Assembly: GCA_026982705.1 (NCBI GenBank)
Contig: JALSGP010000047.1
Location: forward strand, 1-36,661
Length of the DNA stretch: 36,661 nucleotides
Origin: Alphaproteobacteria bacterium
Lineage (GTDB): Bacteria > Pseudomonadota > Alphaproteobacteria > Geminicoccales > Geminicoccaceae
Direction of reading: 5' to 3'
A program made the translations under genes and the position numbers. Of the stretch, positions 32,871 to 35,627 are shown one piece after another; positions within the stretch are counted from its first letter, which is position 1, and every line of letters begins with the position of its first letter. The notes under the pieces were generated by a model. It was given only the letters and a program-made list of their open reading frames with translations, was not told the origin of the DNA and made no database searches.

Positions 32871-33407
32871 ATGTCCCGCACCTCCGTCGTCTCCCGTCGC
32901 GGCCTCGCCATCGCCCTGCCGATCGCCGTCCTCCTCGCGGCGGTCGCGGCCGACGCCGCCCGCGACCGCCTCGGCAGCAGCGGACTGCCACTCCCGCGTT
33001 GGGTCTCCCTCGCCTCCTCCCGCGCCAATCTGCGCACCGGCCCCGGTCGCCAGTTCCCGGTGCGCTGGGTCTACGTGCGCCGGGGGCTGCCACTCCGGGT
33101 GCTGGACGAGGCCGACGTCTGGCGGAAGGTGGAGGACCCGGGCGGCGAGCGGGGCTGGATGCACGCGGCGCTGCTCTCCAGCCGGCGTACGGTGATGGTG
33201 GTGGGAGAGGTGCGCGCGCTGCGCCGCACCCCGGCATCCGGCGCGCGGGTGGTGGCGCGGCTGGAGCCCGGGGTCCTCGGCCGGCTGCTGAGCTGCGAGC
33301 GGGACTGGTGTCTCGTGGAGGTGGAGCGGTACCGCGGCTGGCTCAGGCGGGACGAGATGTGGGGCGTGGATCCGGCACCCCCGACGGCGGCGGAACCCGA
33401 AGGCTGA
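32871..33407 (+). CDS. Exported SH3-domain protein
   Basis: This 178-aa protein has an N-terminal hydrophobic segment (12-30, IALPIAVLLAAVAADAA) acting as a signal peptide or anchor. Two bacterial SH3-like repeats (SH3_4 type) follow at about 45-105 and 106-168. The first repeat has ASSRANLRTGPGRQFPVRWVY and WRKVEDPGGERGWM; the second has VRALRRTPASGARVVARLE and CLVEVERYRGWLRRDEMWG. Such proteins act in the envelope, sometimes on peptidoglycan. It lies immediately upstream of the cobalamin riboswitch, which should be a separate transcription unit. Confidence 0.88.
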   Translation: MSRTSVVSRRGLAIALPIAVLLAAVAADAARDRLGSSGLPLPRWVSLASSRANLRTGPGRQFPVRWVYVRRGLPLRVLDEADVWRKVEDPGGERGWMHAALLSSRRTVMVVGEVRALRRTPASGARVVARLEPGVLGRLLSCERDWCLVEVERYRGWLRRDEMWGVDPAPPTAAEPEG

Positions 33408-33439: not shown

Positions 33440-33609
33440 GGCAGGCTGGTCGGCGAGGGGATGGTTCCCGTTCCGGGACGAAGAGGGAAGCCGGTGGGAA
33501 TCCGGCGCTGCCCCCGCAACTGTGAGCGGCGAGCCGAGATCCGGGACGCCACTGGGATCCTCCCGGGAAGGCGGATCGAGGCCGTGACCCGCGAGCCAGG
33601 AGACCTGCC
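33440..33609 (+). promoter_or_regulatory. Cobalamin (B12) riboswitch
   Basis: The aptamer is framed by P1, GGCAGG (33440-33445) pairing with CCTGCC (33604-33609). The B12 box AGCCAGGAGACCTGCC is at 33594-33609. Conserved core elements GGGAAGCCGGTGGGAATCC and CCCGCAACTGTGAGCGG lie between. These riboswitches lower expression of downstream genes when adenosylcobalamin is abundant. The aptamer ends 48 bases before the YVTN gene start codon. No terminator T-run is seen, so control of translation initiation is the likelier mode. The upstream limit of the transcript is unknown. Confidence 0.93.
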
Positions 33610-33625
33610 ATCCCTGCGGAACCAC

Positions 33626-33640
33626 GGGGCGGGGTGCCCC
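33626..33640 (+). promoter_or_regulatory. Short hairpin between riboswitch and start codon
   Basis: GGGGC (33626-33630) can pair with GCCCC (33636-33640) around a GGGGT loop, six bases before the Shine-Dalgarno GAGGAGG (33646-33652). It may be part of the expression platform; it has no T-run and is unlikely to terminate. Confidence 0.45.
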
Positions 33641-33657
33641 CGAACGAGGAGGTCACG

Positions 33658-34800
33658 ATGATCGCACGTCTCGTCTTCGCCGCCGTCCTCGGCCTCTCCA
33701 CCGCGGCCGGGGCGGCTGGCTTCGCCGACGTGGAGCGCTACGTCTTCGTGCCCAACCGCGGCTCCGCCGACGTGGCGGTGATCGACACCACCACCGACAC
33801 GGTGGTGGGCCGCGTCCCCGTCGGCCGCGTGCCCCACCAGGTGGCCGTCTCCGACACCCTGGGGATGCTGGTGGCCTCCAACACGGAGGACGACACCGTC
33901 ACCCTCTTCGATCTCGCCGCCGGCACCACCCTCGCCACCCTCACCCTCGACCGCACGCCCGAGCACATGGAACTGTCGCCCACGGGCGATCTGGTGGCGG
34001 TGGGCAACATCGAGGGCGGCAGCGTGTCGCTGGTGGACCTGCGGGCGCGCCGCGAGATCGCGCGCGTCGAGGGTCTCTACGAGCCCCACAACATGACCTT
34101 CTCCCCCGACGGCCGCTACATCTACGTGGGCAATCTCGGCGCCGACCTGGTCTCGGTGATCGACGTGGCCGCCGCCCGGGTGGTGGAGGAGATCCCGGTG
34201 GGCGATCCCAAGCTGGTGGCGAGCCGCGGCGACAGCGCCTATCAGGGGATCGTCGACGTGACCGCCACCCCCGACCGGCGGCTGGGCTTCGCCGCCTTCG
34301 GCGAGGGGGACGTGATGGCGGTGCTGGACCTGCGCACCCGCCGCCGCATCGCCACCCTCCGGCTCGGCGATCTCCCCTGGCGTGCCTATTCCACCGCCGA
34401 CGGGCGCTTCATGATCGTCCCCAACAACGGGGACGGCACCGTCTCCGTCGTCGCCACCGCGAGCCTGCGCGAGGTGGCGCGGCTGCGCGGCGGCGAGGAC
34501 ATGACCGGCGTCAACACCGGCTGGTTCGAGACCACCGCCTTCGTGATCTCGCGCGGCGAGCGGCGGCTCCACGTGCTGGATCTGGTGGAGATGCGGAACG
34601 CCGGCGAGATCCCGCTGCCGGGCGTGCCCGAGACCGGCGTCACCACCCCCGACGGCCTGAAGCTGTACGTGGCCCTCTCCTCCACCGACCAGGTGGCGGT
34701 GATCGACACCCGTCGCCGGCGGCTGGTGAGGCTCGTCGACGGGGTGGGGGACGAGCCCTGGGGCACCTTCATGGTGGGATCCCTCAACTACTGTCACTGA
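33658..34800 (+). CDS. Secreted YVTN/YncE-type beta-propeller under cobalamin riboswitch control
   Basis: The 380-aa protein has a signal peptide (LVFAAVLGLSTAAGAAG, cleavage near residue 20) and repeated blades of the YVTN type. The first is YVFVPNRGSADVAVIDTT; later blades include IYVGNLGADLVSVIDVA and VPNNGDGTVSVVATA. The last blade, LYVALSSTDQVAVIDT, closes the ring, giving about seven blades. It has no lipobox cysteine. I choose the ATG at 33658 with GAGGAGG upstream. It is the first gene after the riboswitch and shares its transcript with the S41-like gene 23 bases on. YncE-type propellers are often found near TonB receptors, but none is here. The ligand is unknown. Confidence 0.9.
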   Translation: MIARLVFAAVLGLSTAAGAAGFADVERYVFVPNRGSADVAVIDTTTDTVVGRVPVGRVPHQVAVSDTLGMLVASNTEDDTVTLFDLAAGTTLATLTLDRTPEHMELSPTGDLVAVGNIEGGSVSLVDLRARREIARVEGLYEPHNMTFSPDGRYIYVGNLGADLVSVIDVAAARVVEEIPVGDPKLVASRGDSAYQGIVDVTATPDRRLGFAAFGEGDVMAVLDLRTRRRIATLRLGDLPWRAYSTADGRFMIVPNNGDGTVSVVATASLREVARLRGGEDMTGVNTGWFETTAFVISRGERRLHVLDLVEMRNAGEIPLPGVPETGVTTPDGLKLYVALSSTDQVAVIDTRRRRLVRLVDGVGDEPWGTFMVGSLNYCH

Positions 34801-34823
34801 CCGAGCCTCGGCGGACGCGCACC

Positions 34824-35627
34824 GTGCGGTCGTGGACGGCCGCTCTGGTGCTGGGCGCGGCCCTCGTCCTCCCCGGGACGGGGGCCGCGGCGCTCCTGGC
34901 GCGACTGCCGCTGGACGAAGCCGAGCGCACCTTCCTGCGCGCCCGCTGCGACGGCGAGGCCCTCTGCATCGCCCGCGTCCTGGTCCGCCGCCATCCCCGT
35001 CGCTTCCGCATCGAACCGGCGCCGCCCTACGACACCGACCGCATCCGCTGGGTGGTGCACGTCCCGTCGCTGGGGCCGGTGCGGCGGCTGGCCGACGGGC
35101 GGCTGCTGGTGCCGCTGCGCCGCTTCGGCCGCACCCTCTGGCGCGAACTGAAGGCGGCCGATCTCGCCGGCCGGCGGGTGGTGCTGGACCTGCGCGACAA
35201 CGGTGGCGGCGATCTGCGGCGGGCGCTGGAACTCGCCGCCCGCCTGCTGGGACCGGCGCGGGCGCGGGTGGTGCTGCACCGGTCCGACGCTGGCCGGACG
35301 GTGCTGAGCGCCGACCGGCCGGCCCCGATCCCCGCCTTCCGGGTGACGGCGGTGCTGATCTCCGGGCGCACCGCCAGCAGCGCCGAGGTGCTGGCCGCCC
35401 TGCTGCGGGTGGCGGGCGCACGGCTGTGCGGCCGTCCCAGCTTCGGCAAGGACCGGCTCGAGATGGTGCTGCCGCTGCCGGAGGGGCTGCGGCTGCGGGT
35501 GGCGCTGGGGCGGCTGGTGGTGCCGGGCCGTCCCCGCCCCGGTCCCCTCGTCCCCGACGGTCCCCTCGCCGCCTGCGGCCTCGTGCCCGGGCCCCCGGGC
35601 GAGGGCGGTGCCGGGGATCACCCGTGA
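34824..35627 (+). CDS. Minimal S41-family (C-terminal-processing-type) exported protease
   Basis: The 267-aa protein has a signal peptide ([17 protein letters not shown] then AAA) and the S41 core: [20 protein letters not shown] at 119-138, then [14 protein letters not shown] at 181-194. The family's catalytic serine is expected at Ser185 or Ser186, and GRPSFGKD puts the general-base Lys at 209. It lacks the PDZ domain and helical regions of Prc/CtpA proteins and is much shorter than usual. The start is a GTG at 34824. It follows the beta-propeller gene by 23 bases and is thus probably B12-repressed too. The serine spacing is slightly shorter than in CtpB (25 residues), so activity should not be assumed. 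Confidence 0.8.

Follow-up and report, generated by a model that had tools for sequence, protein, structure and literature searches.

What may a cobalamin riboswitch control when the genes behind it encode neither a B12 transporter, nor a B12 synthesis enzyme, nor a B12-independent isozyme? The question is raised by a contig of an alphaproteobacterium of the Geminicoccaceae (GCA_026982705.1), whose whole analysed stretch of 36,661 nucleotides is called the window below. There, an RF00174 aptamer is followed by a gene for a YVTN-type β-propeller and by a gene for a small S41 peptidase (Table 1). A profile scan gave no match to CbiM, NicO, FecCD or similar families in either protein. The original prediction saw in the pair a possible cobalamin or cobalt scavenging unit or, alternatively, a receptor-processing one.

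Table 1. Positions of the features discussed; entries that begin with a locus handle refer to loci outside the window.
Feature	Positions	Strand	Basis
Cobalamin (AdoCbl-class) riboswitch aptamer, RF00174	33445..33626	+	covariance-model match
P13-like hairpin GGGGC-GGGGU-GCCCC, proposed expression platform	33626..33640	+	comparative pairing
Shine-Dalgarno sequence GAGGAGG	33646..33652	+	sequence
Propeller, YVTN/YncE-type, eight-bladed in the model; H60, H103, H144, M282, C-terminal N377-Y-C-H380	33658..34800	+	
Small S41 peptidase without PDZ match; Ser185/Lys209 dyad	34824..35627	+	Pfam, alignment
OprB-like porins with paired-Cys motif	L008 6139-7707; L009 2898-4430; L010 6137-7714; L070 6237-7352		
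Tandem cobalamin riboswitches	L083 4915-5617; L086 4204-4945; L087 7437-7994; L088 5585-6090; L008 4682-5636		

The aptamer that had been claimed is a full-length match to the covariance model (positions 1-189 of 189), with 133.5 bits against a gathering threshold of 31.5 (E 1.2e-33), and it is the sole copy found when the genome was scanned for RF00174 (2,655,386 bases, 99.66% complete). It starts 37 bases past an SH3-domain gene (32871-33407), and the ATG of the propeller gene lies 31 bases beyond its end. At the 3′ border of the aptamer, a short hairpin, which we take to be P13-like, is proposed as the expression platform. In six Pseudomonadota loci (five distinct rows) the GGGGU loop is invariant and the 5-bp stem shows two double-sided changes, with 100% of cells paired; in the shuffle control, 20 of 500 shuffles pair equally well. 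Single-strand folding of the platform region was no better than that of shuffles, with z-scores near zero, and the short covarying hairpin alone is therefore offered as the platform. Its modest covariation, together with a distance of 6 nt between its 3′ end and the Shine-Dalgarno sequence, would fit translational control. Riboswitches of this class usually act as B12-dependent repressors, and from the sequence it is almost certain that the riboswitch controls the propeller/S41 unit. In five Planctomycetota, two cobalamin riboswitches stand in tandem before a porin-propeller operon, an arrangement that could sharpen the response to B12.

The propeller gene encodes 380 amino acids. As had been proposed, the protein belongs with the YVTN propellers: it matches PF21783 (YNCE) with 58.2 bits against a cut-off of 27.1, TIGR02276 (YVTN repeats) with 130.8 against 27.85 and PF02239 with 54.1 against 25.5, and PF10282 is also above its cut-off. 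The YncE equivalog model NF052280 stays below its cut-off (27 versus 400 bits). The N-terminus, judged by eye, resembles a signal peptide, and the protein is putatively secreted or periplasmic. An AlphaFold2 model was built from ten sequences (mean pLDDT 88.3, pTM 0.86; average pLDDT 68 for the last ten residues). It begins with three strands, continues with seven complete blades and closes with a C-terminal strand region, so that the predicted fold is an eight-bladed propeller whose eighth blade is closed by both termini. The best full-length structural matches are likewise eight-bladed. With the structural aligner, cytochrome cd1 nitrite reductases fill the first 18 rows, the best being 1dy7_B (Z 38.8, rmsd 3.2, 346 aligned residues, 16% identity); the WD40-type 5mzh_A (Z 34.4), NirF 6tv2_A (Z 33.3) and NirN 6rte_A (Z 32.4) are further matches. 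Foldseek places 1l0q first by E-value, with a TM-score of 0.64, and gives NirS higher TM-scores, up to 0.79. Such likeness to cd1-type propellers does not establish function.

The family has a conserved residue signature. Residues were counted on an alignment of 25 rows (a 16-row alignment was also made), which excludes the propeller of G819 (L089), that of G1005 at a contig end, and the plasmid copies H2 and H3. A C-terminal -NYCH-stop is found in 25/25 propellers, as are M282, W241, R242, E325 and W368; -NYCH-stop also closes every row of the 16-row alignment. H60, H103 and H144 are kept in 24 of the 25, the exception being the protein of G335. The window protein has no cysteine other than C379, and of its five histidines (60, 103, 144, 305 and 380) four are within the conserved set. 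In the model, the three conserved histidines sit where the inner strand begins in three successive blades (strands 59-65, 101-106 and 143-148). In other metal-binding propellers, such as nitrous oxide reductase and the carotenoid oxygenases, positions of this kind face the central channel, as they would here. A profile match of residues 32-105 with 149-223 of 1hzu, which holds at the level of the range only, suggests that H60 (window 33835-33837) may fall near position 182, the d1-heme ligand of cytochrome cd1. The exceptional propeller of G335 (L017, 1411-2604) is divergent: it keeps -NYCH, and the three histidines, the S41 neighbour and the riboswitch are gone. It is possibly a repurposed paralogue.

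The second gene starts 23 bases past the propeller gene and encodes 267 amino acids. The minimal S41 protease that had been announced is found in it: PF03572 matches with 61.9 bits against a cut-off of 24 and is the sole Pfam model at E ≤ 1, with no PDZ domain detected. Ser185 lies within TASSAE and Lys209 within SFGKD. The serine aligns with the CtpA position occupied by Ser in 7rpq and by Ala in 7rqh, the S302A entry, and the dyad is intact. Both motifs occur in 20 of 22 S41 partners; the two misses are L012, with frame changes, and L086, at a contig end. The protein has the Ser-Lys core of the C-terminal processing proteases CtpA and D1 (best matches 7rpq and 7rqh, and also 1fc6), although its model (pLDDT 83.5) covers the CtpA-type core only in part, with a TM-score of about 0.5. 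Unlike CtpA and D1, it has no PDZ match, it is small, it adjoins a propeller, and it carries a Cys pair (C42 and C48 in the window protein) that is common to the aligned alphaproteobacterial partners.

Relatives were collected from a contig search (9 loci), from 385 genomes of the class (7 hits including the window's own), from 398 genomes of the phylum (2 hits including its own), from 294 genomes of the phylum of G391 (10 hits including G391) and from three Manganitrophus plasmid records. One locus was taken per genome or plasmid, plasmid H2 being left out, which gives 28 loci from Pseudomonadota, Planctomycetota and Nitrospirota. A pair mostly devoid of riboswitches in relatives would have gone against the original prediction; instead, RF00174 lies upstream of the propeller unit at 18 of the 28 loci, in all three phyla. 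These are 7 of 14 in Pseudomonadota (the window, G385-G388, G126 and G480), 9 of 12 in Planctomycetota (G391-G393, G1027, G991, G934, G890, G980 and G819) and both loci of Nitrospirota. The ten loci where no upstream riboswitch was found are those of G389, G390, G228, G289, G272, G176, G335, G958, G833 and G1005; the upstream view is limited in G176, whose propeller is near a contig end, and in G1005, whose propeller runs off one. In G272 and G176, the RF00174 scan found no cobalamin riboswitch genome-wide. An S41 gene stands beside the propeller at 22 of 28 loci (Pseudomonadota 13/14, Planctomycetota 9/12, Nitrospirota 0/2). The gene pair is thus conserved in two phyla, and the propeller with a riboswitch in three. 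In Planctomycetota and Nitrospirota, the order is riboswitch or riboswitches if present, OprB-like porin, propeller, and S41 gene if present, only some of the porins having been scanned against Pfam. On the tree, loci with a riboswitch occur in both deep clades and on the deepest alphaproteobacterial branch, L016. Because the riboswitch label needs five changes on this tree, loss and regain are both possible.

The carriers of the unit tend to have genes for making B12. CbiC/CobH is present in 16 of the 16 carriers searched, versus 138 of the 385 genomes of the class. Within the class sample, the enzyme is found in 7/7 carriers (hypergeometric p 6.9e-4), or in 6/6 when the window's genome is set aside (p 1.9e-3), values that are correlative and, because the carrier genomes are related, indicative. 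CobN was found in 16 of 17 carriers, G393 being the one where it is missing. The window's genome has CobH/CbiC and CobN and, from its gene content, would make B12. It has no TonB receptor (PF00593: 0 matches, 0 candidates), so that the earlier remark that none is present near the locus extends to the whole genome; the same search found none in 8 of 16 carriers, the window's genome among them. For FecCD, no match was found in 6 of 17 carriers (G000, which is the window's genome, G228, G385, G386, G390 and G393), and only 6 of the 17 have one above the cut-off. Since neither a TonB receptor nor a FecCD/BtuC permease was found in the window's genome, B12 import is unlikely there, and uptake of the vitamin was rejected as the function of the unit in this organism. 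Cobalt import by CbiM was also rejected, no CbiM having been found; for NicO, the genome has a sub-cut-off match only, on contig C39, beside genes that look by eye like hydrogenase-maturation genes. Within the family of the window's organism, G131 and G316 are without CobN and CbiC and show no propeller at the search threshold. G233 has both enzymes and no propeller at 1e-30, so that making B12 does not require the unit.

What else the riboswitches head in these genomes points in the direction of cobalt. The RF00174 scan of 16 carriers returned 30 matches, 29 of them above the cut-off. In two Alphaproteobacteria, all three riboswitches of the genome head, respectively, CobW-CobN, CbiM and the propeller unit (C4, C16 and C24 in G126; C32, C147 and C55 in G388, where CobW and CobN were assigned by visual comparison with the G126 frames). 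CbiM likewise stands behind a riboswitch in G335, which has a further one at C2, and in G393. G289, G228, G389 and G390 have one riboswitch each, before a gene that is CobU-like by eye, and a riboswitch of G392 stands before a TonB receptor gene. Two weak cobalamin riboswitch matches in G391 (C38, 142646-143050; L051 and L052) precede a gene that resembles, by eye, pilin or secretion genes. In Manganitrophus, the porin-propeller unit, with a riboswitch of its own, follows a run of B12-synthesis genes (cbiT-cobI-...-cobO-cobyrinate synthase), and there is no S41 gene nearby, so that the peptidase would not be essential to the unit. The B12-synthesis operon and the unit are seen on the Candidatus Manganitrophus plasmids CP114558 and CP114554 (L070 and L071); the propeller is a single frame in GAC2 and is split into two frames in GAC1.

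The loci often add genes or domains that handle metals. A NosL domain is detected in the S41 proteins of L008, L009 and L083 (34.6, 26.4 and 24.6 bits; cut-off 24). A PCuAC gene follows the S41 gene in L013 (112.3 bits) and L006 (103.9 bits), and the gene at that place in L007 resembles PCuAC by appearance. In L004, an HMA-domain gene precedes the riboswitch and a multicopper oxidase is nearby; in L010, a CzcA/CusB-type efflux pair stands just upstream of the riboswitch. Among the OprB-like porins, an N-terminal paired-Cys motif is reminiscent of metal-binding knuckles. In the window's genome itself, genes for SBP56, an SCO1-like protein and PCuAC lie on contig C13 (L055, 13506-16658), a few kb from cob genes.

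Several explanations of these data may be envisaged. In one of them, the riboswitch would have drifted before unrelated genes, and the unit would have no connection with cobalt or B12. The folds of the two proteins are indeed generic, and the flanking genes in the window (the SH3-domain gene, rpoH and a frame that is GuaA-like by eye) are unrelated. However, with 29 riboswitches above the cut-off spread over 16 genomes that total about 51 Mb, simple arithmetic gives about 0.02 loci expected by chance to have a riboswitch within 4 kb upstream, versus 9 of 16 observed, and with 18 of the 28 loci so equipped this explanation is highly improbable. In another explanation, the ligand of the propeller would be cobalamin, cobinamide or a corrin intermediate, on the model of the Bacteroides surface protein BtuG or of the tetrapyrrole-binding d1 propellers NirS, NirF and NirN. 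BtuG loci also place a YVTN-type propeller under B12-riboswitch control (PMC6143338, as far as its text was covered), as does the window. Profile matches of the propeller include the BtuG-type structures 8okv (6.8e-8) and 3dsm (2.4e-5); the d1-type propellers are its best structural matches, and the riboswitch before a TonB receptor in G392 agrees with a corrinoid ligand. BtuG, nonetheless, is seven-bladed and lipid-anchored and works with BtuB (from the parts covered of PMC6143338 and PMC10404256), whereas the window propeller is eight-bladed in the model and is without an N-terminal Cys. Neither a TonB receptor nor a FecCD permease was found in its genome, half of the carriers searched lack the receptor, and two phyla have an OprB-like porin instead. 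The unit adds to what is seen in BtuG an invariant set of histidines, the -NYCH end and the S41 partner. As to cd1, NirF and NirN, with which it shares eight blades and a periplasmic type, the propeller has 16-19% identity, no cytochrome c domain and links with cobalt/B12 genes, and there are no nir genes in the neighbourhoods read. A porin should, moreover, be too narrow for B12. A corrinoid ligand thus appears unlikely.

Copper deserves a separate consideration, because NosL and PCuAC are known for this metal. A copper-handling unit under B12 control might shield cobalt delivery from copper, or support a copper enzyme required at low B12. The NosL and PCuAC partners, the L004 neighbours (a multicopper oxidase and an HMA protein), the efflux genes upstream in L010 and the Cys/Met/His ligand set of the propeller would all suit it. 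Against this, the firmly assigned co-regulated genes are those of cobalt (CobN, CobW and CbiM) and of B12 synthesis, and no copper enzyme is common to all the loci read; we regard this explanation as quite improbable. As regards the receptor-processing role also put forward at the outset, it is disfavoured by the carriers devoid of any TonB receptor, and processing of a receptor by the S41 peptidase was ruled out where the genome has none. Of the proposed scavenging unit, the cobalt half has stood and the cobalamin half has not, at least in this genome. Cobalt scavenging is favoured because CbiC/CobH accompanies the unit in every carrier searched, because CobW-CobN and CbiM are co-regulated with it and because of its metal-handling partners. 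That the unit has some role in cobalt or B12 supply is likely. That it is a B12-repressed periplasmic cobalt-acquisition module for B12-synthesising bacteria is the reading we adopt, with somewhat better than even confidence. It has to be weighed against the ten loci that show no upstream riboswitch, the copper associations of NosL and PCuAC, the Manganitrophus units that do without an S41 neighbour, the B12 maker G233 with no propeller, and the window's genome itself, where the search brought up no known cobalt importer. Chances are about equal that Co(II) is the ligand of the propeller; the identity of the metal is deduced from context, and a copper or tetrapyrrole ligand is possible.

If the unit acquires cobalt, the following scheme may be imagined. 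At low adenosylcobalamin, the riboswitch would permit the unit to be made. Cobalt would enter the periplasm via a porin, whose gene belongs to the operon in Planctomycetota and Nitrospirota, and would be bound by the propeller through H60, H103 and H144 at the channel mouth, M282 and the C-terminal Cys379-His380. The propeller would then pass the metal on towards inner-membrane import and CobN, with PCuAC or NosL domains, in the loci that have them, acting as relay chaperones. Maturing or recycling the propeller or a partner might fall to the S41 peptidase, which is the weakest step; a role in maturing the C-terminus, or in turnover, is doubtful. One may go further and propose, tentatively, an undescribed periplasmic cobalt-binding family, in which Co(II) would be held between the three inner-strand histidines, the methionine and the C-terminal Cys-His, and loading or release would be the task of a dedicated S41 peptidase. 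This would be the missing periplasmic cobalt step in B12 makers without TonB receptors.

Among the known systems close to such a unit are cobalt transporters controlled by cobalamin riboswitches, CbiMNQO, CbtJKL, NiCoT, HupE, CbtA-G and CbtX (PMC7689651 and PMC2667541, in the parts covered). The regulatory logic is the same and the organisms are partly the same; these systems, however, are membrane transporters or involve a classic ABC binding protein, whereas the unit consists of a soluble propeller and a peptidase. For the porin, a parallel is offered by Geobacter sulfurreducens, where, in the part covered of PMC545781, a porin of the OprB family, lying before feoAB and controlled by FUR, was proposed for metal entry. 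In both cases a porin of the PF04966 family is under a regulator of metal nutrition, with iron and FUR in Geobacter and a cobalamin riboswitch here, the porin being confined to the planctomycete and Nitrospirota loci.

A literature search found no description of the riboswitch-propeller-S41 unit, although an earlier listing is possible in a 2003 J Biol Chem survey, which lay outside its scope. In the main text of a 2013 survey of cobalamin regulons, the word 'propeller' does not occur (PMC3766115). A 2021 review, in the portion covered, names for cobalt inner-membrane importers, efflux pumps and periplasmic sensors, and states that an outer-membrane receptor specific to this metal has yet to be confirmed (PMC7689651). 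Periplasmic capture of cobalt is thus largely unknown, and a B12-repressed propeller with a fixed set of candidate ligands would fill this gap. The candidate capture propeller is common to Alphaproteobacteria, to anammox and other Planctomycetota and to Manganitrophus, and it is a directly testable protein. If the proposal is true, it would be the second YVTN propeller, after BtuG, to have been recruited to B12 nutrition, in this case for making the vitamin rather than for importing it.
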